In this document: positions 7,034 through 30,628 of the stretch, piece after piece
How the letters are laid out: each line of letters starts with the position of its first letter
Position numbering within the stretch: the first letter of the stretch is position 1
Source: Elainella saxicola E1
Lineage (GTDB): Bacteria > Cyanobacteriota > Cyanobacteriia > Elainellales > Elainellaceae
Assembly: GCA_002796835.1 (NCBI GenBank)
Contig: LUGL01000005.1
Coordinates: 17,228 to 58,812 of the forward strand
Reading direction: 5' to 3'
DNA: 41,585 nucleotides
Notes under the pieces: generated by a model
Databases searched by the model: none
What the model was told of the DNA's origin: nothing
What the model saw: only the letters and a program-made list of their open reading frames with translations
Program-made: the position numbers and the translations under genes

Positions 7034-9592
7034 ATGGCCTCTATCGCTCCATCGGCTCAGAAAACCAGTGCCGGTGTTTCATTAATTGCTCCTCTATCCG
7101 GACGATTGGTTCCGATCGAGAAAGTCCCTGACCCGGTTTTTGCCGAGAGGATGGTTGGGGACGGCATTTCGATCGATCCAGTCAGTCAAACCTTGCTTGC
7201 TCCCTGTGACGGGGAAGTGATTCAGCTTCATCCTTCCTGCCATGCTGTGACTGTTAAAACGGCTGATGGGTTGGAAGTACTGATGCATATTGGTCTGGAT
7301 ACGGTAACGCTGCGAGGAGAAGGATTTCAGCCGAAAGTCAAGGTGGGCGATCGCGTCAAAGCGGGCGATGTGTTGATTGAGTTCGATGCAGACTATGTCG
7401 CCCTGAATGCCAAGAGCTTGCTGACCCAAATTGTCGTGACGAATAGCGATCAGGTGGCGAAGTTTCTGCCTTATTCGGGGAACGTCACGGTTGGACAGGA
7501 TGTGATTTTAGAATTAACGCTGGCGAGTGCGCAGGATACTGCTACTGTCCAAACTGGGGTGACCGTCACCTCAGATCCAATCATTGTGCCGAATCCAACC
7601 GGGCTGCATGCTCGTCCAGCGGCAGTGCTGGTGAATTTGGCGAAGAAGTATCAGTCTACCCTACGCTTGAAACGGGGTGAGCAGGAAGTGAGTGCCCGCA
7701 GCGTGGTGGGCTTGATGGGATTGGAAGTTGCGCATGGTGATACCGTGCAGCTTATTGCGGATGGTCCGGATGCGGTGGCTGCGATCGCAGAACTCAGCGA
7801 AGCCTTGCGCACTGGGCTGGGTGAAGAAGGGGCAAAACCGATCGTCTCAACCGCTAGCGTGGCGAGTCTAACAGCAGCTCCCCCTCCCCCTCGGCCTCGA
7901 TCGACCGATCCAAACGTGATTTTAGGCGTGGCGGCTTCTCCGGGATTGGCGGTTGGCTACACTTACGCCCTGCGGCATCAAGAAATTCAGGTGGCAGAGG
8001 CCGGATCGACTCCTAACGCAGAACGTCGCAAATTGGAGCAAGCGATCGATCAGGCTAAGTCGGAAATTGAGGCACTGCGGGCCAAAGTGCATGGTCAGGC
8101 GGATGCGGGCAAGGCCGCCATTTTTGCAGCCCATTTAGAGCTATTGGAAGATCCTGAAATTGCCGATACGGCGACCAATTTGATCGACAAGGGCAAGAGT
8201 GCCGCCTTTGCCTGGAAGCAGTCCTACATGGCCCAAGCCGAAACCCTGGCGAAGCTGAAAAATGAACTACTAGCGGCTCGTGCCAACGATTTGCGAGATG
8301 TGGGAGGTCGGGTATTGCGCATTCTGACTGGAACTTCTGTTGAAGCCATCTCCTATCCGGACAACTGCATTCTGCTGGCCGAAGATCTGACCCCTTCTGA
8401 TACGGCCACGATGGAAAAAGGGAAAGTGCTGGGCTTTTGTACCGTTGGCGGTGGGGCAACCTCTCATGTTTCGATCCTGGCTCGATCGATGGATATTCCA
8501 GCCATTGCAGGATCTGAGCCACGCATCATGGATCTGGCTGACGGTACACCCGTGATTCTAGATGGCAGCAAGGGTAAACTGCGGCTGAATCCCTCGGTGG
8601 AAGAAATGGAGCGAGTGCGGACGGTGCAGGTGCGGCAAAAGGCAAAACGCGAAGCCGATTTAGCGACAGCCGACCAGCCTGCGATTACCCGTGATGGCCA
8701 CCGGATTGAGGTCGTGGCAAACATCGGCAACCAGAAAGATGCAGAGAAGTCGGTGGCGCTGGGCGGTGAAGGGGTCGGTTTGCTGCGATCGGAATTTGTG
8801 TTTATGGAACGCAGCAGTGCACCCAGTGAAGCGGAACAAACCGAAATTTACAGCAACATTGCTCGAATTTTGGGCGATCGGCCTTTGATTATTCGCACCT
8901 TAGATGTGGGGGGCGACAAGCCATTGTCCTATTTGCCAATTCCCCATGAAGAGAATCCTTTCCTGGGTGAACGGGGCATCCGGATTGGGTTCGATCGGCC
9001 TGATATTTTGCGGACTCAGCTTCGTGCCATTCTGAAAGCCTCAACCGTGGGTAACGTTAAGGTAATGTTTCCGATGATTGCCACGTTAGAAGATTGGCGA
9101 ATGGCGAAGGCAATGCTGGAAGAAGAGCGGCAGAATCTGGGTGTTGGACCGATCGACGCGGGCATTATGGTGGAAGTACCTTCGGCTGCGGTATTGGCCG
9201 ATCAGTTTGCCAAAGAAGCTGATTTCTTTTCAGTCGGCACGAATGACTTGACCCAATACACGCTGGCGATGGATCGGGGTCATCCCAAACTCGCACCCTA
9301 TGTAGATGGCTTGAATCCGGCGGTGCTGTCGCTGATCGGCATGGCAGCTAAGGCAGCCAATGCACATGGTAAGTTCTGCGGCATTTGTGGCGGTATTGGC
9401 AGCGATCCGCAGGCTGTGCCAATTCTGATCGGCTTGGGTGTAAAGGAACTAAGTGTCAGCGTTCCCACGATTCCCAGCATCAAAGCCCAAATTCGCGAAT
9501 TGAGTCTGGCGGACTGTCAACGGCTGGCAGAAAAAGCGTTGTCGTTGCAGTCAGGCGCAGAGGTGCGAGAACTGTGTCCCTTAGAAGACTAA
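7034..9592 (+). CDS. PTS fusion EIIA(Glc)-HPr-Enzyme I (phosphoenolpyruvate-protein phosphotransferase)
   Basis: This 852-residue protein carries all the general and one sugar-specific cytoplasmic PTS component in one chain. Residues about 15-165 are a glucose-type EIIA with H70 and the phosphorylated H85 (VLMHIGLDTV). Residues about 180-262 are HPr with the phospho-histidine H192 (GLHARPA) and a conserved regulatory-type serine S223 (ARSVVGLM). A proline-rich linker (PPPPRPR, about 283-289) leads into Enzyme I (about 293-850) with H478 (GGATSHVSILAR) and the PEP-domain cysteine C785 (ICGG). PEP gives phosphate to EI, then HPr, EIIA and the EIIB of the next gene. An AAGGAG ribosome binding site lies at 7017-7022. 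The fusion order is the same as NagF/FruB-like multiphosphoryl transfer proteins. A PTS is rare in cyanobacteria. Confidence 0.95.
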   Translation: MASIAPSAQKTSAGVSLIAPLSGRLVPIEKVPDPVFAERMVGDGISIDPVSQTLLAPCDGEVIQLHPSCHAVTVKTADGLEVLMHIGLDTVTLRGEGFQPKVKVGDRVKAGDVLIEFDADYVALNAKSLLTQIVVTNSDQVAKFLPYSGNVTVGQDVILELTLASAQDTATVQTGVTVTSDPIIVPNPTGLHARPAAVLVNLAKKYQSTLRLKRGEQEVSARSVVGLMGLEVAHGDTVQLIADGPDAVAAIAELSEALRTGLGEEGAKPIVSTASVASLTAAPPPPRPRSTDPNVILGVAASPGLAVGYTYALRHQEIQVAEAGSTPNAERRKLEQAIDQAKSEIEALRAKVHGQADAGKAAIFAAHLELLEDPEIADTATNLIDKGKSAAFAWKQSYMAQAETLAKLKNELLAARANDLRDVGGRVLRILTGTSVEAISYPDNCILLAEDLTPSDTATMEKGKVLGFCTVGGGATSHVSILARSMDIPAIAGSEPRIMDLADGTPVILDGSKGKLRLNPSVEEMERVRTVQVRQKAKREADLATADQPAITRDGHRIEVVANIGNQKDAEKSVALGGEGVGLLRSEFVFMERSSAPSEAEQTEIYSNIARILGDRPLIIRTLDVGGDKPLSYLPIPHEENPFLGERGIRIGFDRPDILRTQLRAILKASTVGNVKVMFPMIATLEDWRMAKAMLEEERQNLGVGPIDAGIMVEVPSAAVLADQFAKEADFFSVGTNDLTQYTLAMDRGHPKLAPYVDGLNPAVLSLIGMAAKAANAHGKFCGICGGIGSDPQAVPILIGLGVKELSVSVPTIPSIKAQIRELSLADCQRLAEKALSLQSGAEVRELCPLED

Positions 9593-9656
9593 GCGGTGTT
9601 TTCAGCACTCTCAGTAGATCGAAGATGAATTTATTTTGATGACAATGCTTGTGATT

Positions 9657-9740
9657 GATCCCCCTAAATCCCCCTTCAAAAGGGGGACTTAAGACACTTT
9701 CGGCTCGGTTCCCCCTTGGCTAAGGGGGGCTAGGGGGATC
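9657..9740. repeat. Interspersed palindromic repeat (GATCCCCCTAAA family) between the two PTS genes
   Basis: The element starts GATCCCCCTAAATCCCCCTT and ends with its near inverted copy AAGGGGGGCTAGGGGGATC, so the ends can pair. Inside, CCCCCTT-caaa-AGGGGG forms a small hairpin and TTCCCCCTTGGCTAAGGGGGG a second one. Such imperfect C/G-tract palindromes are widespread in cyanobacterial intergenic DNA, and this one looks like a small MITE-like repeat. It is inserted in the spacer between the EIIA-HPr-EI and EIICB genes, so it may reduce or stop read-through between them. Confidence 0.75.
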
Positions 9741-9806
9741 TCAACAGGATTTGTGATCGACCGATACTCTGCCATTTCTCATTCATTCAACTCTACAAAC
9801 AACCCT

Positions 9807-11663
9807 ATGTGGAAAAAATCATTTGCTATCCTGCAACAGCTTGGGAAGTCGTTAATGCTTCCTGTTTCGGTGCTTCCCGTTGCGGGAATTTTGCTTGGCT
9901 TGGGTAGCGCCCGCTTAATTGAGATTGACAATATCGAGAAAGGGATTATTCAAAATCCCAAGTTCTGGTTCTTGCCAGAATGGTTGGCCTACATCATGAA
10001 AGGATCGGGGGACGCCATTTTTGGCAACCTACCGCTGATTTTTGCGATCGCAGTGGCGATCGGTTTTACCAATAACGATGGGGCGGCGGCAGTTGCTGCG
10101 ATCGTCGGTTTTGTAGCGTTTCTGGCAACGATGGGGGCGGCGTCCGTTCATTTGTTTGGTGTTGATCCGGATACTTTGTCGAAAGTGATGGGCATCGACT
10201 CCTTGGATACTGGGGTATTTGGGGGCTTGATCATCGGCGGTTTAGCGGCCTATCTATTCAACAAATTTTTCCGGATTCAGTTACCCCAATATTTGGGATT
10301 CTTTGCCGGTAAACGATCGGTCCCCATTCTCACTGCTGTTGCCGCAATTTTCGTAGGCGTTTTGATGAGCGTGATTTGGCCGCCGATCGGAACAGCGATT
10401 CGGACAGCAGCCACCGCAGCCGCAGAAGGAAGTAATACTGCCACGACTGCTGCAATTTATGGGGTAGTTGAGCGCTTGCTGTTGCCCTTTGGGTTGCATC
10501 ATATCTGGAACGTTCCTTTCTTCTTCCAGATCGGTTCTTTTATTGATCCAATCACTAAACAGCCGGTGACGGGCGACATCAACCGCTTCTTTGCAGGCGA
10601 CCCGACGGCAGGCATTCTGGGTGGTGCTTACTGGTTCAAGATGTATGGATTGCCCGCTGCGGCGATCGCCATGTGGCATTGCGCCTATCCCAAGAATCGC
10701 AAGATCACGAGTGGGATTATGCTCTCTGCGGCGTTCACCTCTTTCCTAACTGGGATTACGGAACCGATCGAATTCTCGTTTATGTTCGTCGCTCCGGGTC
10801 TCTATGCCGTTCACGCAGTTATGGCAGGATTCTGTCAGTGGTTATTCCAGGTGATGGGCGGCAAAATGGGTTTCACCTTCTCGCAGGGTGGCATCGACTT
10901 TTTGCTGTTTAGCGGTTTGCCCAATGCCCAAAAGGTTTGGTTGCTGCCGTTGCTCGGTATTTTAGTCTTCGCACCGCTCTACTATTGGGTGTTCCGACTG
11001 GCGATCAAACGGTTCAATTTGAAAACCCCTGGTCGGGAGGATGAGACAACGGCTGCGATCGGTCCAGTTGGCCCAGGTTCAGAGATGGCGCGTGAATTGG
11101 TGCGAGCCTTTGGTGGCCGGAATAACATTGCTACCCTCGATGCCTGTATCACTCGCTTGCGCATTACCGTAAACGACACGAAGCAAGTCAACAAAGCTCG
11201 TTTGAAAGCGTTGGGTGCGTCGGGCGTGCTGGAGGTCGGCAATAGCGCTCAGGCGATCTTTGGTCCGCGATCGGAAAACCTGAAAACCGACATGATCGAA
11301 TATCTGCGCAATGCTGGATCGGAAGCGGATGAAGCCTATCAACCCGATCCAGCAGAGGTGGCGGCTGAAGCAGCGGCAGTGGCACCAGTTGCTGGACCGG
11401 AGGTGGATCCGGAAGCGCCTGCGAAGGTGAAAGCGATGATCGCGGCCTTGGGCGGCATGGGTAACATTCGCCGGGTGGATGATGTGGCGTTGACTCGCTT
11501 GCGGATTGAAGTGGCTGAGAGTGAGCGGGTGGATGAGGAAGCGCTGCGGGCTGCGGGTGCAGAGGGCATTTTGCGGCTACCGGGCGGTAAGTTGCATTTG
11601 ATCGTGGGCTTAGGAGCCGATCAGTATGCGGCAGAGATGAAAGGTCAGTTGGCAAAGGTGTAA
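9807..11663 (+). CDS. ptsG: PTS glucose-type EIICB permease with a second, degenerate EIIB domain
   Basis: The frame is open from GTG 9753, but the family N-terminus ([19 protein letters not shown]) starts at ATG 9807, giving 618 residues. Residues about 5-405 are an EIIC membrane domain with the FFAGDPTAG motif (261-269) and the conserved [12 protein letters not shown] segment (316-327). The linker TPGRED and the following EIIB (about 425-502, phospho-cysteine C447 in DACITRLR) are very close to the E. coli glucose PtsG pattern, so glucose is the likeliest sugar, with GlcNAc as the alternative. After an Ala/Pro-rich linker a second EIIB-like domain (about 538-615) reads [10 protein letters not shown], with A561 where the phosphorylated cysteine should be. 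No ribosome binding site is obvious. The protein should import and phosphorylate sugar using the phosphate relay from the upstream gene. Confidence 0.93.
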
Positions 11664-11695: not shown

Positions 11696-11729
11696 GTAGG
11701 GGCGTTTCGCGAAACGCCCTTACTTTTTT
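11696..11729 (+). terminator. Rho-independent-type terminator / cyanobacterial palindrome
   Basis: A perfect 20-base palindrome GGGCGTTTCGCGAAACGCCC (11700-11719) extends outward through GTAG/TTAC with one wobble pair, and is followed by six T at 11724-11729. It lies 33 bases after the EIICB stop, so it probably ends the PTS transcript. The same GGGCGTTTCGCGAAACGCCC type is a common interspersed repeat in cyanobacteria, so it may be a repeat used as a terminator. Confidence 0.8.
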
Positions 11730-11819: not shown

Positions 11820-12080
11820 ATGCTAAAAACAGTGCAAGGTATTTATCAGAATGGCCAAGTGGAACTGACTGAACTGCCACCCAGCGTAACTGACCAAGTG
11901 CAAGTTTTAGTGACTTTCCTCGACGCTGACAATATTGATCTCCCTAAACTGCGTCAACTGATCGAGCATTTAGAGACGATCGCGGGAATTCAGCAGGGGT
12001 TTGAAGAACTAAACGCAGGTCAGGCTCGTTCAATCGGGAGTTTCATCACTGAAATGCAATCGATCGCACGACAGCGTTAG
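11820..12080 (+). CDS. Small antitoxin-like protein (AF2212/DUF104-like N-terminus)
   Basis: This 86-residue protein starts MLKTVQGIYQNGQVELTELP, the pattern of AF2212-like (DUF104) antitoxins and their cyanobacterial relatives, which form a short beta hairpin region that binds DNA or a toxin. Its C-terminal half, GIQQGFEELNAGQARSIGSF, matches the helical tail seen in many cyanobacterial antitoxins and resembles the tail of the antitoxin-like protein at 13723. No toxin gene overlaps or follows it: the next 170 bases hold no recognisable PIN or RelE-type frame, only an 18-codon frame from 12155. It is therefore an orphan antitoxin by context. Family assignment is by weak pattern, so its function is uncertain. 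Confidence 0.6.
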   Translation: MLKTVQGIYQNGQVELTELPPSVTDQVQVLVTFLDADNIDLPKLRQLIEHLETIAGIQQGFEELNAGQARSIGSFITEMQSIARQR

Positions 12081-12251
12081 CAACGGTTCGTTAGTAATAT
12101 GTGAGAACTAAGCGATCGAATCTTGGGAAAGAAGCGAGCGACTTTCGAGGGGTTATGGCTGAATTAATTGAAGTAGATCGATTGTCTAATGCAGTCAAGC
12201 AAACAAAGTAGGCGTAAACTACAAAAAACCTCAAACGACTAAGCACAATCT

Positions 12252-13415
12252 ATGAACGAAGACCAATTTGAACAGCTTTTATATGAAGAAGAAGGAACCA
12301 CTCTTGACTTCAAGAAACAGCAATATTTATTCTCAAAAGTAAGTGACGAAGAAAAGTCAGAGCTACTTAAGGATATCCTAGGTTTTGCCAATGCTTGGCG
12401 AAGAGCCACTGCATATATCCTTATCGGAGTAGAAGATGTCCGAGGTGGTCGTGGAAAGATTGTCGGTATTTCTCCGAATGACCACTTACAAGATCATGCA
12501 CTTCAGCAATTTGTCAACAACCTAACAAACTACCCAGTGAGGTTTCACTATGAAGCATTCAGTTTTGAAGGCAAGCAGATCGGTATTATAAGCATTGAAG
12601 AGCAAATGCGACCTATCTATTTAAAGCGCGATTACGGCAAACTTAAGAAGAATGAGGTTTATGTTCGCAGGGGAAGCTCTACCGATCCAACGAAGCCAGC
12701 ATTACCTGAAGAGATTGCAAGCATGAGATTAGGAGCATCTCAAGAAGATGCTTTACTCTCTATGCAGTTCTGTCATGTAGAAACTGAGATACCTCTAGGA
12801 TCTTCACTGGTATGTGAGTCTGAGTACTGCGAGATACCGCCAAGGCACTCAATTCCTGATTTGCCCCGTCCAAAACGTGAGATCTGGCAATCTGATGTTC
12901 TCGATCAAACAAACCACAATTTCTATCGTGAGTTAGCCGATTATGAATATAAGCGTCGGCTTTGCCAACCTGCGCGATTAATTGTTGAAAACAGTGGTAA
13001 GATTGCCGCCAAGAATGTGCGTGTTGAAATAACGACTCCGAACCAGTCTGAGATCATTGCCTTTGAAAAAGCTGCTCTACCACAACGACCTAGCAGAGAT
13101 AGGTTTGCAAATCCTGTCTCTTTAAGAGGGATCCGATCCATTCATAGAAATCCTGGTGCTGTCGAGATTGAGTCTCCTCCTGGAAAGCTAATTGTTAAAG
13201 CCGATTTTGGAGATTTACAACCTGGGAGATGCGTCTGCTCAGCAATCTTCTATATCGGTAGTAGGATCAGCCAAGAGATTATGCTATCCGCCTTTATTTA
13301 TGCTGACAATCTAACAGTTCCTAAAGAATTTATTCTTAAAATCTCTGTTTCTTCAAAAATGACATCAATGACCTTCGAGCAATTGAAGTGGATAGGACAG
13401 TTTCGGCATTGCTGA
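12252..13415 (+). CDS. AlbA_2/Schlafen-type putative ATP- or nucleic-acid-binding protein
   Basis: This 387-residue protein has an N-terminal AlbA_2 (Schlafen AAA_4-type) domain at about 5-155: EEGTTLDFKKQQ, DILGFANAWRRATAYILIGVED, and a VYVRRGSSTDPT segment near the end of the domain. In this family the domain occurs in transcriptional regulators and in anti-phage or RNA-binding proteins. The rest (about 160-387) does not match anything I recognise; it contains ARLIVENSGKIAAKNVRVEI, a beta-rich stretch that looks like an immunoglobulin-like fold. No helix-turn-helix is obvious at the C-terminus. It stands alone, rightward, 170 bases after the antitoxin-like gene. The function is unknown; a defence role is speculation. 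Confidence 0.75.
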   Translation: MNEDQFEQLLYEEEGTTLDFKKQQYLFSKVSDEEKSELLKDILGFANAWRRATAYILIGVEDVRGGRGKIVGISPNDHLQDHALQQFVNNLTNYPVRFHYEAFSFEGKQIGIISIEEQMRPIYLKRDYGKLKKNEVYVRRGSSTDPTKPALPEEIASMRLGASQEDALLSMQFCHVETEIPLGSSLVCESEYCEIPPRHSIPDLPRPKREIWQSDVLDQTNHNFYRELADYEYKRRLCQPARLIVENSGKIAAKNVRVEITTPNQSEIIAFEKAALPQRPSRDRFANPVSLRGIRSIHRNPGAVEIESPPGKLIVKADFGDLQPGRCVCSAIFYIGSRISQEIMLSAFIYADNLTVPKEFILKISVSSKMTSMTFEQLKWIGQFRHC

Positions 13416-13722
13416 TTTAAGCTGTAAATCAGTCTTTGAAAGCCCTGAAAACTCGTTTAAAATTTTTCGAAATCATGCTGTCACTCACTAATGTTCATTA
13501 TCTGACAGTACCAATGTGAGCCGATCAATGGAATTGTGCGGTTGTCTTTCTAACTCAACATCAAACGTATAAGGTCGGTTGTGAAGCCCAACACCGAGTT
13601 TGGTTGATCAACGATCTGAACTTGAGCCAATGCCAACGCAAGATGATTCGAGTTGGACATTGAGTCATCCTACATTTGGTAGAATATTGACTTAAAGGCC
13701 CAATGCTAAAAGACAAGGCTGT
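13416..13722. other. Intergenic region, no confident gene
   Basis: The 307 bases between the AlbA_2 gene and the next antitoxin gene contain one stop-free frame of about 49 codons (about 13519-13665), without a start codon or recognisable family. A possible -10 hexamer TAGAAT lies at 13680-13685, about 38 bases before the antitoxin ATG, with no clear -35. It may hold debris of a lost gene. Confidence 0.35.
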
Positions 13723-13977
13723 ATGACCATTGTTGTAACCCTTAGCCCAGAATTAGAGAAGCTTCTTCAGGAAAAGACTGCTCCGCAAGGGCAGGATATA
13801 AGCCTTGTTGCCTCTGAGTTACTGGCAAATGCCTTGATGCAGGAAATGCAAGAGTCAGAAGAGGCAATTCAGGGGATTCAACAAGGTTTAGATGACTTCG
13901 AGGCAGGAAAATACCGATCGTTCCAAGAGTTTGCTGAAGAACAACGCCACAAATACAATCTGCCCGCTGATCCATGA
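13723..13977 (+). CDS. Antitoxin, ParD-like type II family
   Basis: This 84-residue protein has the layout of cyanobacterial ParD-like antitoxins: an N-terminal strand (MTIVVTLSPELEKLLQEKT), a helix, and a charged tail EEAIQGIQQGLDDFEAGKYRSFQEFAEEQR that wraps the toxin in the family. Two bases after its stop, a GTG at 13979 begins VSYRIEISSVA, the usual start of a RelE/ParE toxin, but the frame ends after 19 residues. The antitoxin therefore appears intact while its toxin is broken. A second, more decayed copy of the tail is at 17564-17632. Confidence 0.7.
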   Translation: MTIVVTLSPELEKLLQEKTAPQGQDISLVASELLANALMQEMQESEEAIQGIQQGLDDFEAGKYRSFQEFAEEQRHKYNLPADP

Positions 13978-13978
13978 G

Positions 13979-14038
13979 GTGTCATACCGTATCGAAATTT
14001 CAAGTGTTGCAGCAGGGGATCGATCAGAGAATGGATGA
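13979..14038 (+). pseudogene. Remnant of a RelE/ParE-type toxin gene
   Basis: Starting at GTG 13979 the frame reads VSYRIEISSVA, then loses similarity and stops at TGA 14036-14038. This short N-terminal string is typical of RelE/ParE toxins, which normally follow a ParD-like antitoxin at once, as here. Nothing downstream restores a toxin-like frame before the leftward xisI gene, so most of the toxin is missing. The identification rests on about eleven residues and on context. Confidence 0.45.
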
Positions 14039-14107
14039 ATAGGCGATCGAGATTTGCGAATCCTCCTAAGATGAAATGGCGAGGGCAATAGAGTATTCTG
14101 AAGCTCA

Positions 14108-14443
14108 TCAGCTAACGGCATAGTCAGTAAATTGGCGCTTGAAGGGGGGGTGAAAGCCCAGCACAATATCAGTTTTAGGGACTCCCATTTCGACCAATTC
14201 TTCAGCAAAGTCAACATCAGTCATGTTGCGCTGAATCCAAATTTTTTCGTTTCTAATTTCGATGTGAACGCTGCAACTATAAATGTGGCGGGATTCTTCC
14301 CAACCCAAGTTGACTAGTAGATAGCGATCGTTGTTGGTATCGCAAACAAACTCTCGCTCAATGTCAGGGTTGAGAGATTTATAACTTGCATGTTCATTCA
14401 ACAAGGTTTGGATCGCCTGACGATAGTGGGCTAGTTTATCCAT
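14108..14443 (-). CDS. xisI: XisI family protein
   Basis: This 111-residue protein starts at ATG 14443 (MDKLAHYRQAIQTLL); the frame is open upstream but that part lies inside xisH. It shows the XisI pattern: LNEHASYKSLNPDIEREFVCDTNNDRYLLVNLGWE in two parts, a VHIEIRNEKIWIQRN strand, DVDFAEELVEMGVP, and the C-terminal VLGFHPP. XisI was named as a factor controlling excision of the fdxN element in heterocyst-forming Anabaena, acting with XisH and the recombinase XisF. It overlaps the end of xisH by 13 bases, so the two are a translationally coupled pair. No recombinase or element border is nearby, so a role beyond excision is likely. Confidence 0.9.
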   Translation of the reverse strand: MDKLAHYRQAIQTLLNEHASYKSLNPDIEREFVCDTNNDRYLLVNLGWEESRHIYSCSVHIEIRNEKIWIQRNMTDVDFAEELVEMGVPKTDIVLGFHPPFKRQFTDYAVS

Positions 14444-14847
14444 TGGGTAATTTCCTCCAATGTGATTTTGTAGATGATTAACTTGAGATTGTATTCCTGA
14501 CACATCTGCCGGATTGTTTCTTTCTGGAAAAAGGTTTCGTAGGTATCTGAAGGGATCGCAAGGTAGAGAATACGGTCAGGCTCTACTTTTCTCAAAGTAA
14601 ATCGATAATTCATGAATTGCCCTACTGCTGTGTGAAATTCTGAGAAATTGGAGCCACGAATAAAACTTTTGATTTCAACAGCAATGGTTTGATTATTGCG
14701 TTCAGCCGCAATTAGACGCTCTGCACCCAAATCAATCTGAGCTTCAATATCTGTTAACTCAATGTAAAGCGGGTCATGGGTAATGATCCAGCCATCTTTT
14801 TCGAGGGCACGACGCACAATATCGTGAAAGATATCTTTTCTAGACAT
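14431..14847 (-). CDS. xisH: XisH family protein
   Basis: This 138-residue protein starts at ATG 14847, nine bases after a GGAGG on the leftward strand; a TTG nine bases upstream is too close to that site. It has the XisH pattern: MSRKDIFHDIVRRALEKDGWIITHDPLYI, then DLGAERLIAAERNNQTIAVEIKSF with the D-x(n)-E-x-K arrangement of a restriction-endonuclease-like fold, then FHTAVGQFMNYRF and a C-terminal LKLIIYKITLEEI. In Anabaena, XisH is needed with XisI and XisF to excise the fdxN element. Multiple xisHI pairs per genome are typical of cyanobacteria. It is followed by xisI with a 13-base overlap. Confidence 0.9.
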   Translation of the reverse strand: MSRKDIFHDIVRRALEKDGWIITHDPLYIELTDIEAQIDLGAERLIAAERNNQTIAVEIKSFIRGSNFSEFHTAVGQFMNYRFTLRKVEPDRILYLAIPSDTYETFFQKETIRQMCQEYNLKLIIYKITLEEITQWIN

Positions 14848-14880
14848 CAGGTTCAACCTCCCTCATATTCAGTTTACCGC

Positions 14881-14958
14881 TCACTGCGCCTGAAACGATC
14901 GCCCAATCATGTTCTCGTCTATCAGCAGTAGGGAATCCTAGAAAAAATTCTAGTGTTT
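14881..14958 (+). repeat. Left block of the duplicated segment, copy 1 (leader of the split gene)
   Basis: Bases 14895-14958 match 17871-17934 at about 62 of 64 positions by eye; weaker similarity reaches back to 14881/17858. The block forms the upstream region of the gene at 14971. It contains CTAGAAaaaaTTCTAG, a short palindrome that is changed by one base in the other copy. In copy 2 the block is joined almost directly to the 21-bp array, without the gene. Confidence 0.8.
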
Positions 14959-14970
14959 TGGAGAACAACC

Positions 14971-15462
14971 GTGCCCTACCAAGATATTAACGTCAGCCTA
15001 TCTGACGCCGATCTCACCGAAATCAAGCAGGCCATCAACACCATCCAGCAAAAGATGCCCTTTCTGATTACGCTGAGCCAGGAAGAACGCCGTCGGCTCT
15101 AAAAAATGGGCGATAAGCGGCTTGCTTTTGTGCAAAATAGCTTCAATGCGGCCCAAAGTAACCGCAACATTCTGCCAGCCAGCTTTGACCTGGAAGCCTA
15201 TACCAACGACTATCAGCTCGCTGCCGACCTGACCGAACTGCTGATGCTGCTCACCCAAATTACCGAACAGGTAAACGATACGCTGATGGCCGTCGGCAGT
15301 GAAGCCATGAGCAGCAGCCTCACGGTGTATGAGTATGTCAAAACAGCCGCCAAAAAGACGCCCGGTTTGAAATCGATCGCGGAACAACTCGGCACCTTAT
15401 TCAAGGCGATCAGAACCAAGTCAGCTAAACCTGCGATCGACCCTGTTGCTGCTTCCAACTAG
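14971..15462 (+). pseudogene. Conserved cyanobacterial small protein gene interrupted by one in-frame TAA
   Basis: From GTG 14971 (GGAG at 14960-14963) the frame reads MPYQDINVSLSDADLTEIKQ (GTG as Met) to EERRRL and stops at TAA 15100-15102. The same frame resumes as KMGDKRLAFVQNSF with an ATG four bases after the stop (15106) and runs 118 residues to 15462. Joined, they form one helical protein of about 163 residues that matches a cyanobacterial family of unknown function I recognise by the MPYQDI start and the MAVGSEAM and KTAAKKTPGLK segments. The single stop would be a one-base change from a Leu or similar codon. Translation could restart at the ATG at 15106 to give a C-terminal fragment. 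Alternatively the gene is dead. Family function is unknown. Confidence 0.75.
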
Positions 15463-15499
15463 CCGCTGCTCAGGTTGAGGATGGCTCGCAAAGCTCCGA

Positions 15500-15772
15500 T
15501 CATCGAGCGTCAAGCTTGGAGATACGTCATCGAACCTTAACCCATTGTGGCTGATACTCCTACATTCAACGGTAAACCGTCACTTATCATCCCCGAACCT
15601 CAACGATACCTCCGTGAATCTCTCGCATTCGTCCGCCATGAGTAAAGGTCTATCGACGAACCTCCACACATCTCGGTTGATGCTCTCCGCTTCATTGTCA
15701 AACCGTGACTCATCCCGGTTGAATCTCGGCACTCCATCGATCAACCTCAGCAGATCGATCGCTATATTCTTG
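15500..15772. repeat. Degenerate 21-bp tandem repeat array, copy 1 (13 units)
   Basis: The sequence divides without gaps into thirteen units of exactly 21 bases, each ending like GAACCTCAAC or a variant, with consensus roughly nnATCnnCGGTGAACCTCAnC. Units are contiguous with no spacers, so it is not a CRISPR array. It aligns unit by unit with the array at 17950-18222 at about 211 of 273 positions by hand count. Read on the minus strand, the period corresponds to a heptapeptide similar to LRFxxDx, stop-free through eight units (15580-15771). Confidence 0.85.
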
Positions 15773-15826
15773 ACGTAAAAGTAGTGTTCTGGCAGGACGG
15801 GCAAGACGCCCATCCCACAAGAGTTT
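15773..15826. repeat. Right block of the duplicated segment, copy 1 (common cyanobacterial GGGCAAGACGCCC repeat)
   Basis: After the array the sequence reads ACGTAAAAGTAGTGTTCTGG and then AGGACGGGCAAGACGCCCAT. The part GACGGGCAAGACGCCCATCC is a widespread cyanobacterial interspersed motif with a short hairpin (GGGC-aaga-GCCC-like). The block matches 18223-18276 with very few differences and then the copies diverge. Confidence 0.7.
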
Positions 15827-15831
15827 GTTGG

Positions 15832-16047
15832 TTATCTTTCCAGAACAGTCATGTATTTTCCGGCAGCAAAGGGAGCTGGAACGATCGGCGTAAATTTCAC
15901 TCGGTCATTCGCAATCCGCTTGACGTAGAACTCGTTGATCGTATGCAGGACTTGTTCTCTAGTGCCAATAATCCAGATCTGCGATTTGTCGTTAGGCGGC
16001 TGTTCGTCACGACAAACAGGCAGCAGTTCGTTGAACTCTGTAGACAT
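15832..16047 (-). CDS. Small conserved cyanobacterial protein of unknown function (71 aa)
   Basis: The leftward frame begins at ATG 16047, with GAGGG about eight bases upstream, and ends just beside the repeat block. It reads MSTEFNELLPVCRDEQPP, then QIWIIGTREQVLHTINEFYV, KRIANDRVKFTPIVPAP and a C-terminal AAGKYMTVLER. I recognise the IGTREEVLHTINEFYV type core as a small protein found in several cyanobacteria, with no function assigned. No membrane segment or metal site is visible. It lies between the two halves of the duplicated repeat region and has no counterpart in copy 2. Confidence 0.65.
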   Translation of the reverse strand: MSTEFNELLPVCRDEQPPNDKSQIWIIGTREQVLHTINEFYVKRIANDRVKFTPIVPAPFAAGKYMTVLER

Positions 16048-16690
16048 GGTATTTCCCTCGCGAATGTTGGGTTTTGTGCGAAGAAAAGCTCAAGGTATAG
16101 TTGCCCAGACATCGCTAAACTGCTGAAGATCGATTAAGATCGCAGCAATCTGGCTCTCTGGGGAAAACAGAGGTCCGGACGAGCTGGTTATGAGTGCTGC
16201 TAACACTTATGACCAGCGCCATACCTTAAGCAGATCTACTGGTTGTAAAATCGGTCAAAAAACCAGTGTTGTTCAGCATAAAGCAAAGTTCGATTGAACA
16301 CAAGCGTAGTCAAGGCTTTGTCAATATTTTGTGAGAATTGGGCGATCGAGTGTTTTGTGGAGTGGGGCGATGAGAGTGCTCAGAATTTTGTCTAACTGAG
16401 TGCGATCGTCTCGGTCATGTCCTGGTAAGAGAGGGATTTGCGATCGAGACGTTTGGGCTAAGCCCACATCTGCATTCTCTTCACAGTTTTATAAGGACAA
16501 GAGGTGCCAATTGTCCGCATTCTACATATTCGACATACTGCTCAGCAAACGATAGGGGAAACTCCCAATGAACCTGATGTCATTTGACAATAATCACAAG
16601 CGATATGCATACAAATCGTAGGGCATTTGGGGATGAGTCTCTCACTGTCGCATTACAATAAAAGCAGCACCCTCAGCGACTCTGGCATCC
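16048..16690. other. Long intergenic region with one strong hairpin
   Basis: No gene is seen in these 640 bases. A 14-base stem with two G-T pairs and a 7-base loop is at 16183-16217 (GCTGGTTATGAGTG / CACTTATGACCAGC). No T-run follows it, so it is not a typical terminator. A possible -10 TACAAT lies at 16654-16659, about 32 bases before the ATG of the next gene. Confidence 0.45.
16183..16217. other. Intergenic hairpin
   Basis: The arms GCTGGTTATGAGTG (16183-16196) and CACTTATGACCAGC (16204-16217) pair along all 14 positions if two G-T pairs are allowed, with loop CTGCTAA. It stands about 470 bases before the HNH pair and 135 bases upstream of the leftward small gene, so it is not clearly linked to either. 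It could be a small RNA element, a recombination site or chance. Confidence 0.4.
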
Positions 16691-17065
16691 ATGAGCCTCG
16701 AAGAACTCATTCAAGCAGCCAATCAACTCAACGAAACCGACCTCGATCAACTGCTGCATCAGGTTGCGATTCTTCGGGCACGTCGCAAAGCAAACGTTCT
16801 TTCGGCAGAGGAAGCTCAACTCCTGCTCAAAATTAATCAAGGGGTTCCCACTGATCTGCGAGCACGCTATCAGGAACTTCGTCAAAAACACGAAGCTGAA
16901 ACCCTGACCACTGCTGAACATGAAACCCTAATTCAACTCAGTAATCAAATTGAAGAAATTGGCGCTCAGCGTCTCGCAGCCCTCGCTCAGCTAGCCCAAC
17001 TCCGTCAAGTTTCCCTACTCGACCTGATGGAAACCCTTGGTATTCAATCTGTCACCTATGCCTAG
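16691..17065 (+). CDS. Helical partner protein of the HNH endonuclease
   Basis: This 124-residue protein (MSLEELIQAANQLNETDLDQLLHQVAIL to LLDLMETLGIQSVTYA) is rich in Leu, Gln and Ala and appears almost all alpha-helical, with coiled-coil-like stretches at about 35-70 and 85-115. I do not recognise a named domain. Its stop codon overlaps the start of the HNH nuclease gene by eight bases (17058-17065), so the two proteins are made together. Such small helical genes coupled to HNH nucleases are seen repeatedly in cyanobacteria; an antitoxin, immunity or specificity role would fit the arrangement but is inference. Confidence 0.65.
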   Translation: MSLEELIQAANQLNETDLDQLLHQVAILRARRKANVLSAEEAQLLLKINQGVPTDLRARYQELRQKHEAETLTTAEHETLIQLSNQIEEIGAQRLAALAQLAQLRQVSLLDLMETLGIQSVTYA

Positions 17066-17483
17066 CGAATATGTGCCTGTTGCTTTAAAGCAACTTGTTT
17101 TCGATCGGGCAAAAGGTATGTGCGAATACTGCCGTAGTCAAGCAAAGTTTGCGATCGATCCGCTGGTCATTGACCACATTCAGCCTGTCAGCAAGGGTGG
17201 TGCAACTCGTTCAGAAAATTTAGCCCTTGCTTGCCAAACTTGCAACAACTACAAATACACCAAAACAGAAGCTCCTGACCCAATCACAGACCAAGTTGTT
17301 CCATTATTCCATCCGCGTCAGATGGTTTGGCAAGAACACTTTAGTTGGAACGAGGATGCAACTAAAATGATCGGTATTACGCCTACTGGACGTGCAACCA
17401 TTGCCCTGCTTCAAACGAATCGCCCTGGTGTTTGTAACATGCGGCAAATTCTTGTTGTTATGGGCTATCATCCCCCTGATTAG
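17058..17483 (+). CDS. HNH endonuclease (McrA-like fold)
   Basis: The start is ATG 17058 (MPSEYVPVALKQLVFDRA), inside the end of the upstream gene, giving 141 residues. The HNH motif is complete: CEYCR (first zinc cysteine pair), the catalytic DHI in LVIDHIQPVSKGG, N in SENLALACQTCNNYK (second cysteine pair and final N/H position). It is expected to be a small metal-dependent nuclease that nicks or cuts DNA. The C-terminal region (NEDATKMIGITPTGRATIALLQTN) matches the tail found in stand-alone cyanobacterial HNH proteins. No methylase or other restriction gene is nearby. Confidence 0.92.
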   Translation: MPSEYVPVALKQLVFDRAKGMCEYCRSQAKFAIDPLVIDHIQPVSKGGATRSENLALACQTCNNYKYTKTEAPDPITDQVVPLFHPRQMVWQEHFSWNEDATKMIGITPTGRATIALLQTNRPGVCNMRQILVVMGYHPPD

Positions 17484-17563
17484 TGATGCATATATTCCAA
17501 AACCAACTCAACCTTATTATCTTTGTGCTATTGGCAAATCTCTCCATTTTGGAAAAAAACTCA

Positions 17564-17632
17564 GAAGAAGCGATCGCCAGAATTCAACAAGGGTTAGATG
17601 ATTTTGAAGCAGGAAGATACCGATCATTTCGA
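17564..17632 (+). pseudogene. Decayed antitoxin tail (paralogue of the 13723 gene)
   Basis: The frame reads EEAIARIQQGLDDFEAGRYRSFR, the same tail as the antitoxin at 13723 (EEAIQGIQQGLDDFEAGKYRSF). The DNA matches at about 51 of 66 positions by hand count (13858-13923 against 17564-17629). The regions before and after do not match an antitoxin or a toxin, although the frame stays open from about 17483 to 17782. It is best read as a fragment of a lost toxin-antitoxin pair. Confidence 0.6.
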
Positions 17633-17857
17633 ATCCAACATCCTGCAAATCTTCTCCTCGAAAGTTTTTATTACAGGTTTTTCAGAGCAATCGCACCCGC
17701 AGATGCAACTCACGCCACGGCATACCCTGTATGCGGACGTACATTAGGCGGAATCGCCGATCCGATCATAAATCGATTTTGACAGATCGGCTCTCGTCGC
17801 CTTCGTCCAAGCTGAAATTGCGCCAACAGCGAGGATGAACTTCAGCCACAGTCTATC

Positions 17858-17934
17858 TCGCTGCGACTTGGACGATCGCCCAGTCATGTTCTCGTCTATC
17901 AGCAGTAGGGAATCCTAGAAAAAATTCTCGTGTT
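17858..17934 (+). repeat. Left block of the duplicated segment, copy 2
   Basis: Bases 17871-17934 repeat 14895-14958 with two differences. Here the block runs straight into a short AAGCGAAGTTCCGA stretch and then the 21-bp array, so the roughly 530 bases carrying the split gene in copy 1 are missing. No target-site duplication or scar was recognised at the junction. Confidence 0.8.
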
Positions 17935-17949
17935 TAAGCGAAGTTCCGA

Positions 17950-18222
17950 TCATCGAGCCTCAAGCTCAGCGATAGGCGATTGAACCTCAACATATCGTGA
18001 ATCATGTTCCCATCTTCAACGGTGAACCGTCACTTATCACCCTTGAACTTCAGCAATACGTTCACGAACCGCTAGGATTCACCCGCAATTGATCAAGGTC
18101 GATCGACGCACTTCTACACATCGCGGCTAATGTTCCCAGTTTCATTGTCAAACCATGACTCATCCTGGTTGAAGCTCAACACTTCATGGATGAATCTCAG
18201 CAGATCGATCGCTATATTCTTG
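17950..18222. repeat. Degenerate 21-bp tandem repeat array, copy 2 (13 units)
   Basis: Thirteen contiguous 21-base units align in register with the first array, from TCATCGAGCCTCAAGCTCAG to AGATCGATCGCTATATTCTT plus G. Unit 13 is identical in both arrays, units 4 and 10 differ at two to three positions, and units 3, 6 and 7 are the most diverged. In the minus frame the heptapeptide reading contains several stops here. The right block follows at once. Confidence 0.85.
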
Positions 18223-18757
18223 ACGTAAAAGTGGTGTTCTGGCAGGACGGGCAAGACGCCCATCTCACCAGAATTATAGATCGTTGCTCTCGTAGTCTCG
18301 ATCAGCAGCAGAGAATTTGGACCGATCGATTCTCTTTACTTGTAATAAATAATCACGTTTCTCAGCATCTGTTGAAGTTATCGCTCATGCCATAAAGACT
18401 GATGTCTAGAAGATTGAAAGAAATTGCTAATTTTATTTAAAGGAAAGCAGGTAATCAAAATACATATTCTAGTTGGGAAAAAAGAGTGAAAATACTTATG
18501 AAAGGATCGTTGGACAGGATCTAGCCAGTCAGCAACTGCCTAGGTTTGCTGTCTCCCATTCTCGTGTTTTTCCTAAATTCCTACTGGGTTGCTACCGAGT
18601 CGGAGTGGAACCTGTTGTAAGTCAACCAAGCAAGAGCATTATTTGTAGTAATCCCTTGTGAATGATGAGAGGGTAGCCTGTTTGCCTATTCAGCTAGAGG
18701 TTTGAGCCGCAAAAGTTTCAAGCTGACTTCTCTTAGGATGACAGGAGGTTTTTGATC
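18223..18757. other. Right repeat block, copy 2, then a gene-free stretch
   Basis: Bases 18223-18276 repeat the block after array 1 (GTGTTCTGGCAGGACGGGCA and following GACGCCCATC). The rest, to the start of the beta-solenoid gene, shows no gene or family match; several short frames are interrupted and have no ribosome binding sites. Confidence 0.5.
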
Positions 18758-20017
18758 ATGACGGTGACTTTGACACCGATCGGATGGACTGGAGATACAA
18801 TCGGCACTTGGACCGACGGTACTGATATTGTTGCCAATACTTTTCCCAATCCTGTCTTTAGCAGCAAAGGTATAGAGGTTTTGGCGGATGTAATCATCAA
18901 CACGAAGAATGGCAATCATTCAATGACTGGCTACGGTGGAAACGGTGAAATTGTTCAAGGTTTTGGCGGCAGCATTGAAGGAGGAACCGGAATTGATAAT
19001 GCTGGCACGATAAAATTTGGAAATGGTTCTGATACTCTGTCTGGAAATGGCGGGAACGGTGGCATTGCTTACGTTGCTGGTTTTGGGGGGATTGGCATCA
19101 ACAATATAGGGACGATTACCCTTGGCAAGGGCTCTAACAGCCTGATTGGTAAGGGTGGTAACGGGGGAAATGGTCGATCACGTCCTGGAGGTGTAGGAGT
19201 TAACAATACTGGAACGATCATATTTGAGAATGATGCGAACACCTTTATCGGTACTGGTGGCAAGGGGGGAGACGGTAGTTCTGTCGGAGGATATGGAGTC
19301 GTTAATATTGGTGCTATTACTTTTGGCAAAGAAGATAACACCTTCACTGGAACTGGCGGGACTGGTGGCACGAGCTTAAATGGTGCTTCTGGGGGCAGAG
19401 GGATTGATAATGCTGGCACAATTACCTTTGGTAATGGAGACAATACCTTCACTGGTATTAGCGGCAATCCCGGCAATGGTAAATCTCCTGGCAGTAGCAA
19501 TACAGGTGTCTACAATACTGGCACGATTATTTTTGGTAATGGAAATAACGTTTTTACAGGCAATGGCGATCCGACTGGAACTGATCTGTTTTTCGGGAGT
19601 TTTGGGGCAGGCGTTTATAACGCGAAGGAAGTTATTTTTGGAAGCAATGAAGATATTTTGACAGGAATTGGGAACAACGGCATCTATAATAATGGTTTGA
19701 TTTCACTGGGCAAAGGTGATGACATTGTCAAAACGGTAAATTTCAAGGGAGAGATCGGATTATTCAATGGCAGCGGCAAGATTGATCTGGGTGCAGACGA
19801 CGATCGCCTTTACGGATTCGGTAGTGGTCAGTTTGATGGGGGCAAAGGTGAAGATCGTCTGTTTTTAGGCACCGGCACCTACAATCTTTCAGGCAGCGCT
19901 AATCCTGGCAGTTTCTATACCATCAGTAATGGAGAAATCAATATGTTGGTCAAGAGCTTTACGTCGATCGGAAGCCAAAGTTTCTCGAAGCTGATTGGTA
20001 CAACTTTCACGATTTAA
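18758..20017 (+). CDS. Gly/Asn-rich repeat protein, beta-solenoid-like with RTX-like C-terminus
   Basis: The start is ATG 18758, nine bases after AGGAGG at 18743-18748, giving 419 residues. From about residue 70 to 330 there are eight imperfect repeats of about 25-35 residues. Each has the core G-[IV]-[DYN]-N-x-G-[TAL]-I-x-[FL]-G and then N-x-F-x-G followed by a glycine-rich loop such as TGGTGG. This looks like a stacked beta-solenoid. Near the C-terminus LGADDDRLYGFGSGQFDGGKGEDRLFLG resembles calcium-binding RTX nonapeptides, and the end (TSIGSQSFSKLIGTTFTI) resembles type I secretion tails of cyanobacterial proteins. There is no N-terminal signal peptide. It is probably exported and possibly calcium-dependent. 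No type I secretion genes lie in this window. Confidence 0.75.
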   Translation: MTVTLTPIGWTGDTIGTWTDGTDIVANTFPNPVFSSKGIEVLADVIINTKNGNHSMTGYGGNGEIVQGFGGSIEGGTGIDNAGTIKFGNGSDTLSGNGGNGGIAYVAGFGGIGINNIGTITLGKGSNSLIGKGGNGGNGRSRPGGVGVNNTGTIIFENDANTFIGTGGKGGDGSSVGGYGVVNIGAITFGKEDNTFTGTGGTGGTSLNGASGGRGIDNAGTITFGNGDNTFTGISGNPGNGKSPGSSNTGVYNTGTIIFGNGNNVFTGNGDPTGTDLFFGSFGAGVYNAKEVIFGSNEDILTGIGNNGIYNNGLISLGKGDDIVKTVNFKGEIGLFNGSGKIDLGADDDRLYGFGSGQFDGGKGEDRLFLGTGTYNLSGSANPGSFYTISNGEINMLVKSFTSIGSQSFSKLIGTTFTI

Positions 20018-26872: not shown

Positions 26873-27988
26873 ATGATTGAAGTTGAACATCTGAGTAAAA
26901 TTTACGGTGCAACTCCAGCGATCCAAGATGTGACCTTCTCTGTTGAGCAGGGCGAGATTTTGGGTTTTTTGGGGCCGAATGGTGCGGGTAAAACCACCAC
27001 AATGCGCATCCTGACGGGTTATTTGCCTGCCAGCAGCGGAACCGCTCGAATTGCCGGGTTTGATGTGCATGAAGACTCGATGGCCGTGCGGCAGCGGATT
27101 GGCTATTTGCCGGAAACCCCGCCGCTCTATCCCGATATGACCGTGGAGAGCTTCCTGCATTTTGTGGCCCGGATTAAAGGCGTTGTGGCGGGCGATCGAG
27201 CCAAGCAGGTTGAAAGTGCAATGCAGCGTTGCAATCTGTTGGAAAAACGTAAAGTGCTGATCCGCAAATTGTCCAAAGGCTTCAAACAGCGGGTTGGTAT
27301 TGCTCAGGCGATCGTCCATGATCCACCCGCGATTATTCTGGATGAACCAACGGTTGGACTCGATCCGCGTCAAATTATTGATGTCCGCAATTTAATTAAA
27401 AGTCTGGCCGGCGATCACACGATCATTCTCTCTACCCATATCCTGCCGGAAGTCAGCATGACTTGCAGTCGCGTTGCCATCATTAATCGCGGCAAAGTGG
27501 TTGCCACCAATACCCCAGAACAGTTGATGGCCGAACTGGCCGGCGAAAGTGGCTATGACCTGGAAGTGGAAGGTAACTTGGCCCTCGTTCAGGATCGGCT
27601 GCAAATCCTGGCAGGGGTGAAATCAGTGGAGCGCGTCAGTGACGAAACCTTATCAGACGATCGGCAGCGGTTACGGATTGCCCTGGAAGCGGGTCCAGAT
27701 CCGGGTCGTGAAATTGCCGCTCTGATTGTCGGCTCTGGTCTGGGTCTCTATGAAATGCGTCGCACCAAGGTCAGTTTAGAAAAAGTCTTCCTGGATTTGA
27801 CCACCGAAGAAAAGACGATCGATCCTGATCTGGTCGCTGAAGCGTACGATCGGGCCACGACCTCCGCTGGCTCTCTTCCAGACTCGACTCCAGCAGTTGC
27901 TGACCCCTGGGATGCTGACTCAGCCCATCTTGATTCAACGGTAGAGACAGACTCAACTGACGATCGTTCAGAAGGAGAAGCCCCTTAA
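26873..27988 (+). CDS. ABC transporter ATPase (GldA-like export system)
   Basis: This 371-residue protein has the ATPase core in its first 240 residues: Walker A GPNGAGKTT, the Q-loop near LPETPPLYPDM, the signature LSKGFKQRVGI, Walker B IILDEPTVGLDP, and the H-loop LSTHILPEVS. The pattern is closest to GldA-like ATPases of multi-gene exporters. The C-terminal part (about 240-371) includes an extended domain and an acidic Asp/Ser/Thr tail. Its stop (TAA 27986-27988) directly abuts the start of the permease gene, so the two are translated together. Confidence 0.92.
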   Translation: MIEVEHLSKIYGATPAIQDVTFSVEQGEILGFLGPNGAGKTTTMRILTGYLPASSGTARIAGFDVHEDSMAVRQRIGYLPETPPLYPDMTVESFLHFVARIKGVVAGDRAKQVESAMQRCNLLEKRKVLIRKLSKGFKQRVGIAQAIVHDPPAIILDEPTVGLDPRQIIDVRNLIKSLAGDHTIILSTHILPEVSMTCSRVAIINRGKVVATNTPEQLMAELAGESGYDLEVEGNLALVQDRLQILAGVKSVERVSDETLSDDRQRLRIALEAGPDPGREIAALIVGSGLGLYEMRRTKVSLEKVFLDLTTEEKTIDPDLVAEAYDRATTSAGSLPDSTPAVADPWDADSAHLDSTVETDSTDDRSEGEAP

Positions 27989-28789: not shown

Positions 28790-28929
28790 AAAATCCCTTG
28801 CCGCAAATTTTTGGGTGATAGACCGATATCTCCTCAAGGCGAAGCATTTGGCATCTCTGCTTTGAATGAATGACAGATATTTTGCTTCAACTGCTTTGCC
28901 CCTAATCCCTTTGTCATGAAACGGTTGTC

Positions 28930-30606: not shown

Positions 30607-30628
30607 GGAGTGCTAAGGAGTGATGGTG

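Follow-up and report, generated by a model that had tools for sequence, protein, structure and literature searches.

The phosphoenolpyruvate (PEP)-driven glucose phosphotransferase system (PTS) of Escherichia coli consists of PtsG, Crr, PtsH and PtsI, in which enzyme I (EI), HPr and EIIA are separate proteins and the permease PtsG has one EIIB domain. In Ralstonia eutropha, EI, HPr and EIIA are described as one protein, NagF, acting with a separate EIICB, NagE, as an N-acetylglucosamine (GlcNAc)-specific system independent of the general PTS (PMC3222305), and in Paraburkholderia, Caballeronia, Chromobacterium and Azospirillum a ptsP gene is paired with ptsG. Here we analyse a 41,585-nucleotide stretch of Elainella saxicola E1 (assembly GCA_002796835.1, contig LUGL01000005.1, positions 17,228 to 58,812; hereafter the window), a cyanobacterium in which two genes encode an EIIA-HPr-EI fusion and an EIICB permease with a second EIIB domain, EIIB′. 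Together they form a complete glucose-class PTS of known architecture in a host group where little is known of such systems, and the structural twist provided by EIIB′ is under-described.

A 2008 survey gives the PTS as absent from the cyanobacterial phylum in the text cited (PMC2405797), and the account of a PTS in Nostoc azollae describes such systems as lacking in most cyanobacterial genomes (PMC2900214). A fructose IIC is named in that organism (PMC10095879), and its fructose-type PTS, compared here by description, differs from the system in the window by this EIIC. According to a review of heterotrophy in cyanobacteria, sugars are taken up through permeases and ATP-binding cassette (ABC) systems, with GlcP, Frt and Gls named as transporters; the word 'phosphotransferase' is absent from its text, in which 'PTS' appears once (PMC10515406). 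Among the matches listed for titles and abstract openings of open-access papers, none reported a glucose PTS in cyanobacteria.

A complete glucose-class system encoded by two genes

A sequence-only reading of the window had proposed a complete two-gene glucose-type PTS, and searches with Pfam and NCBIfam models bear this out (Table 1). The first gene contains PTS_EIIA_1, PTS-HPr and three PEP-utiliser domains and the second contains PTS_EIIC followed by two PTS_EIIB stretches, so that EI, HPr, EIIA, EIIB and EIIC domains are all present with their phospho-acceptor residues. The four relay residues named in that reading (EI H478, HPr H192, EIIA H85 and EIIB C447, the last counted from the ATG at 9807) were all correct when aligned to the E. 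coli proteins; alignment to K-12 Crr, PtsH and PtsI further identified EIIA H70 and, in EI, R585, R621, E714, D738 and C785. All 20 of the full-length cyanobacterial fusions that we aligned, the window's included, keep these relay and EI residues, and the EIIB phospho-cysteine is present in all 23 cyanobacterial copies. An alternative GTG start at 9753 would give an EIICB of 636 residues (9753-11663), but the ATG is the likelier start because most relatives in alignment A1 begin there. By sequence, the nearest solved structures are those of E. coli IICB(Glc) (8qsr, 9hnp). Modelled at full length with AlphaFold2, EIICB gave a structure of moderate quality (pLDDT 71.4, pTM 0.57), and the EIIB′ model alone was used for the fold search reported below.

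Compared with described systems, the two proteins would carry out the same functions as PtsG-Crr-PtsH-PtsI of E. coli, to judge by their sequences, and share its sugar-contact residues. The proteobacterial ptsP and ptsG pairs have the same gene pair, the same fusion order, the glucose-contact residues and, mostly, the second EIIB domain; their EIICBs are about 46-56% identical to that of the window (best segment, among the matches listed), and in two Azospirillum records the genes are divergent, unlike the co-directional pair of the window. The cyanobacterial copies differ from these pairs in forming their own branch and in their oxygenic phototroph host. The NagF-NagE system is likened to ours by architecture, not by residues, and differs in its GlcNAc specificity.

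Given this homology, EI H478 would accept phosphate from PEP and relay it within one polypeptide to HPr H192 and on to EIIA H85. From there C447 in the EIIB domain of the permease would receive it, and EIIC would import glucose and release glucose-6-phosphate. Such a route could give the host heterotrophic or mixotrophic growth ability. The explanation of the whole locus that we favour, at a probability of roughly 0.7, is a self-contained glucose PTS with a docking or regulatory EIIB′, which entered cyanobacteria once from a proteobacterial-type source and was later subject to loss, exchange and recombination.

Table 1 Features of the PTS locus, in window coordinates
Feature	Position	Strand	Basis
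EIIA(Glc)-HPr-EI fusion (multiphosphoryl transfer protein), 852 aa	7034..9592	+	Pfam and NCBIfam domains
EIIA domain, aa 16-140; phospho-His H85, codon 7286-7288	7079..7453	+	PF00358, 156 bits; E. coli Crr alignment
HPr domain, aa 182-259; phospho-His H192, codon 7607-7609	7577..7810	+	PF00381, 89 bits; E. coli HPr alignment
Enzyme I, aa 296-847; phospho-His H478, codon 8465-8467	7919..9574	+	TIGR01417, 558.7 bits (cut-off 341.7); E. coli EI alignment
Imperfect inverted repeat, GC-rich, resembling a miniature inverted-repeat transposable element (MITE), between the two PTS genes	9657..9740	.	31-nt arms, 74% complementary
EIICB with second EIIB domain (EIICBB′), 618 aa, start ATG 9807	9807..11663	+	TIGR02002 glucose IIBC, 659.9 bits (cut-off 591.8)
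EIIC membrane domain	9843..10829	+	PF02378, 244 bits; 11/11 E. coli PtsG glucose-contact positions identical
EIIB domain; phospho-Cys C447, codon 11145-11147	11082..11312	+	PF00367/TIGR00826
Second, Cys-less EIIB domain (EIIB′), residues 536-618	11412..11660	+	EIIB hidden Markov model (HMM) match, E 8e-16
Hairpin resembling an intrinsic terminator, after EIICB stop	11696..11723	+	12-pair stem, then TTTTTT

Substrate of the permease

Glucose is the best-supported substrate, judging from family models, contact residues and phylogeny. In addition to TIGR02002 (Table 1), EIICB exceeds the cut-off of the glucose model NF008301 (648.4 versus 647), and it falls below that of the GlcNAc model TIGR01998 (482.4 versus 553.2). 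For E. coli PtsG, cryo-electron microscopy is described as placing E202, R203, H211, H212, N215, K257, T297, E298 and F337 in contact with glucose, with G295 and S338 added from simulation; E202 and K257 touch sugar hydroxyls that include OH-2 and OH-3 (PMC11393339). All 11 residues are identical in the 23 glucose-class EIICBs found in cyanobacteria (A-type) and in 76 of 76 other loci of our scan of the best 80 loci, which were selected by similarity. In E. coli NagE and in the three NagE-like EIICBs of cyanobacteria (B-type; genomes G014, G009 and G021), Asn occupies the E202 position and Met the K257 position. In a tree of the EIIC-EIIB region (75 rows, 30 of 33 near-identical enterobacterial rows having been excluded beforehand), A-type proteins fall with E. 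coli PtsG and B-type proteins with E. coli NagE, NagE and MalX being long branches. Two B-type proteins were scanned, and both are over the TIGR01998 cut-off (648.3 and 592.9).

It is unlikely, though by no means negligible, that the main natural substrate is instead GlcNAc, or a broad range of glucose, glucosamine and GlcNAc, feeding NagA and NagB. Several observations favour this alternative and weigh against glucose. Within the host family, nagB is over its cut-off in 17 of 19 EIICB-bearing genomes and 4 of 17 others (p 1e-4), and nagA scores above 390 bits in 18 of 19 genomes with EIICB and 5 of 17 without (p 6e-5); these p values ignore relatedness, and the 390-bit limit is one we chose to drop a weaker class of matches at 234-261 bits. 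The gene order is EI-nagB-nagA-EIICB in genome G006, EI-EIICB-nagB-nagA in G007 and EI-nagB-nagA-B-type-A-type in G014, and on a plasmid of Azospirillum sp. B510 a ptsG sharing the residue signature is one gene away from nagA and near a gene for N-acetylmuramic acid 6-phosphate (MurNAc-6-P) etherase. Moreover, the two-gene architecture is that described for the NagF/NagE GlcNAc system (PMC3222305), and the EIICB of the window is the sole glucose-family PF02378 EIIC of its genome.

On the other side stand the score below the TIGR01998 cut-off and the two contact residues that differ from those of E. coli NagE and the three cyanobacterial NagE-like proteins, and it is the NagE-like EIICBs that themselves adjoin nagBA (G009, G021) or sit nearer to it (G014). 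The likeness to NagF-NagE lies in the fusion-EIICB architecture; nagBA, which G006, G007 and G014 have within or next to the locus, is unlinked to it in the window genome, where nagA and nagB adjoin each other on another contig (C131). None of the nine neighbouring open reading frames (ORFs) scanned there encodes a sugar transporter; their products include a histidine kinase, a copper amine oxidase, a citrate transporter and Na/Ca exchangers. At the curated cut-off nagA is weakly linked to EIICB (18/19 versus 12/17, p 0.08). Three points therefore weaken the case for a GlcNAc-specific function argued from nag co-occurrence: the residue signature, the existence of a distinct NagE-like clade and the dependence of the nagA result on its threshold. 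We keep this function as a rival to the glucose assignment.

The NagE-like class beside nagBA (loci L164, 3422-5194, L061 and L062) is itself variable in its EIIB content: L164 has a Cys-less second EIIB, L061 has the cysteine in both EIIB domains, each within a DAC motif, and L062 has a single EIIB.

A second EIIB domain without the active-site cysteine

EIIB′ is an addition to the sequence-only reading, as are the mosaic structure of EIICB and the fructose PTS and nagBA genes of the genome. It was recognised with an HMM trained on the first EIIB domain of each of these proteins and of E. coli (Table 1), and a PDB search with an EIIB′ profile in turn retrieved E. coli IIB(Glc) at E 1e-14. An AlphaFold2 model of the domain (pLDDT 96.2) matched the EIIB crystal structure 3bp3 in Foldseek with TM scores of 0.82/0.85. 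Where the active domain reads DACITRLR, the corresponding loop of EIIB′ typically reads PVALTRLR, and the active-site cysteine is absent from EIIB′ in 23 of 23 cyanobacterial A-type copies; because the cysteine is absent, EIIB′ should carry no phosphate. Five non-cyanobacterial loci (L082, L083, L087, L090 and L104) have an EIIB′ cysteine that may align with the active one.

EIIB′ is constrained, yet more loosely than EIIB. Of nine pairs compared, five had a dS that could be measured, and their dN/dS values for EIIB′ were 0.05, 0.07, 0.13, 0.17 and 0.48. Its mean pairwise identity is 0.56, as opposed to 0.80 for EIIB and 0.34 for the linker, and this lower conservation tells against the explanation of the locus that we favour.

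A comparable domain is IIB′ of the E. coli fructose permease FruA, described as a protein-interaction domain (PMC6872149, citing Charbit et al. 1996). FruA is alike in having an extra EIIB that is unused for phosphoryl transfer and a multi-domain protein as its partner (PMC6872149), and both IIB domains are stated to be required for full activity of the E. coli fructose permease (PMC2405797, section 12). An extra EIIB fold without the phospho-cysteine is thus shared, but FruA is of the fructose class, whereas the domain described here is C-terminal in a glucose-class protein, is homologous to glucose-class EIIB and has a putative role. By analogy, EIIB′ may be a docking site for the EIIA-HPr-EI partner, and a docking or regulatory surface for this large protein would be its most likely function.

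The co-occurrence of a second EIIB with adjacent EIIA and EI genes was counted across 102 EIICB rows, with the three E. coli references excluded and the window row entered by hand. A second EIIB together with both EIIA and EI matches in the locus was found in 45 rows, and neither a second EIIB nor a donor match in another 45. Four rows (L091, L100, L102 and L117) have EIIA and EI matches without a second EIIB, and in L117 separate ORFs encode EIIA-HPr and EI. The remaining eight have a second EIIB without a full donor gene in view; seven of these lie near contig ends (L150, L164 twice, L070, L085, L087 and L090), and the eighth, L061, is a short locus whose genome has EI elsewhere. The association is confounded by ancestry, because the 45 rows with neither feature are mostly from Enterobacterales. 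We tentatively suggest, at somewhat less than even odds, that glucose-class permeases, independently of fructose permeases, kept EIIB′ as a docking module for one-piece donors; this would have given a portable two-gene PTS, independent of general PTS proteins and hence able to establish itself in cyanobacteria, its modules being reshuffled there by recombination.

A domain without its cysteine could also indicate that these proteins act mainly as a sensor or regulator, with PTS output directed at other proteins and little contribution to uptake. The genome also encodes two major facilitator superfamily (MFS) sugar porters over the TIGR00879 cut-off, so uptake need not rest on the PTS. Regulatory PTS chains, however, usually have no EIIC, and here every copy compared keeps all of the relay and sugar-contact residues, while dN/dS of EIIC is 0.01-0.07 across nine pairs, one of them with saturated dS. 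We regard a mainly regulatory role as improbable and retain uptake of glucose as the favoured function.

The host genome

The host is a true cyanobacterium, and both the flanks of the locus and its close relatives argue against contamination. The genome (8.7 Mb in 284 contigs; completeness 99.99, contamination 1.06) holds three PsaA/PsaB-family genes of photosystem I. Its draft state and its size, compared with 3.6-5.8 Mb in four congeners (the smallest 77% complete), might suggest that the locus is a contaminant or an assembly artefact, but the congener G002 has an EI 88% identical to that of the window, preceded there by a homologue (81%) of the FAD oxidoreductase found upstream of the window locus. 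The same contig also carries a valyl-tRNA synthetase (ValS) with a cyanobacterial CAAD domain, and EIICB recurs in the host family (19 of 36 genomes). As the sequence-only reading had observed, base composition and HIP1 sites resemble those of the neighbours: GC content is 0.543 in the fusion gene and 0.529 in the EIICB gene, both inside the neighbours' range, and 4 of the window's 20 HIP1 sites fall within the two PTS genes. We consider contamination extremely improbable.

Distribution among cyanobacteria

Glucose-class EIICB is rare across the phylum sample and common in the host's own family. The sample comprised 386 genomes drawn evenly, the window genome included, and at most two or three candidates were scored per genome, so that weak copies could be missed. 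EI was detected in 30 of them (E<=1e-60) and glucose-class EIICB in five, the host among these (E<=1e-30). Within the family, EIICB occurs in 15 of the 27 better genomes and in 12 of 21 genera; outside it, the sample shows EIICB in families f13 and f30. The earlier expectation that a PTS is uncommon in cyanobacteria thus holds for the phylum sample, but the locus is not isolated, being frequent in its own family and present in at least two others. Holders named among the matches listed, from the scan of the best 80 loci, which may omit the window's own genome, are Aphanothece hegewaldii, Nodosilinea sp. FACHB-131, a Leptolyngbya metagenome-assembled genome and the filamentous cyanobacterium CCP3. 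If about half of the family's sampled genomes do encode a PEP-driven route for glucose, the import of sugar would be coupled to the balance of PEP and pyruvate in a photosynthetic cell, and natural strains would be at hand for work on mixotrophy.

EI and EIICB are on a single contig in 21 of the 23 A-type loci and directly adjacent in 19; the remaining A-type loci (G003 and L070) are broken by contig ends. Apart from nagBA, no conserved neighbour that would name a pathway was noticed in clustering of the genes around the loci, and none of ten neighbours scanned in other cyanobacterial loci was related to sugar uptake. In one locus (L163; genome G018, contig C495, 4903-7493) either decay or sequencing error has broken the EIIA-HPr-EI gene up into three ORFs.

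Evolutionary origin and recombination

The cyanobacterial A-type EIICBs form one branch (support 100/100, 23 rows), and so do their EI partners in a quick tree (support 100, 20 rows), which omitted five rows with pieces shorter than 650 residues, two of them cyanobacterial (G014 and G018). The branches around the cyanobacterial copies are mostly two-gene systems of Pseudomonadota, together with Bdellovibrionota, Gemmatimonadota, Verrucomicrobiota and a few others. These trees against other bacteria are consistent with an old acquisition by cyanobacteria, which the sequence-only reading had considered possible, in that both genes give a single cyanobacterial branch in mostly proteobacterial surroundings. 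Weighing against this history is the weakness of the deep nodes, as the base of the EIICB tree has support of 88/38 and no donor is singled out; furthermore, EIICB itself has recombined, so transfer is not the whole of its history. There was probably a single entry into cyanobacteria from a proteobacterial-type two-gene system, after which the locus would have been inherited, lost, exchanged and recombined, mainly within the host family.

Different parts of the locus have different nearest relatives. The EI of the window groups with those of the congeners G002 and G003 and of G017 (100/100), and its placement with G006/G010 is rejected by the approximately unbiased (AU) test (p 3e-4). The EIICB core groups with G006/G014/G010, and its grouping with G002/G003/G017 is rejected (p 8e-6), as is the same grouping with G001 added (p 0.005). 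When the protein is divided, residues 1-300 go with G006/G014/G010 (98/96) and the congener grouping is rejected (p 5e-4), whereas for residues 420-618 it is the grouping with G006/G014/G010 that is rejected (p 6e-4) and that with the congeners is not (p 0.47); the EIIB-EIIB′ end is nearest to G017 and the congeners. The groups compared in these split-tree tests were picked after the first tree had been seen. On this phylogenetic evidence the EIICB gene of the window is a recombinant mosaic, and replacement of the whole gene is rejected on sliding identity and the split trees. As a whole protein, the EI of the congener G001 (L151) groups with G006/G010 (95/92), but over roughly its first 240 residues it matches the window EI as closely as the EIs of the other congeners do, and after that less closely. 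This EI may also be a mosaic, in which case the two-gene locus would have recombined a second time.

Other sugar systems and neighbouring sequence

A genome search for EIICs of the PF02378 type returned two, the window EIICB and a fructose one. The latter belongs to a fructose PTS operon on contig C194 (L166, 9084-14396) that encodes an EIIA-HPr-EI protein, 1-phosphofructokinase and an EIIBC with two EIIB stretches. Its EI is on another branch than that of the window: the other cyanobacterial EIs (26 such rows, thinned to 14) fall with E. coli EI, and among these the fructose annotation was seen for this genome's own and is assumed for the rest. We also considered whether the PTS replaces a classical sugar permease, and rejected this, as porters scoring above the TIGR00879 cut-off show no association with EIICB (3 of 19 genomes with it versus 2 of 17 without).

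The inverted repeat between the two PTS genes belongs to a genome-wide family, its 18-base core having 25 exact copies as compared with none for the reversed pattern. Terminator-like sites such as the hairpin downstream of EIICB show no excess in the region (6 versus 5.9 in shuffles), and a promoter scan gave a single match, on the minus strand, versus 4.3 expected. Downstream of the PTS lies an AT-richer stretch (11820-20017) with a Schlafen AlbA_2 protein and an HNH nuclease, the other ORFs scanned there having no Pfam match. Further along the window, a cluster at 26873-31330 encodes an ABC exporter with an ATPase, an ABC-2 permease, an ABC_transp_aux protein and a DUF4340 protein, which we take to resemble the Gld exporters of the gliding-motility type.

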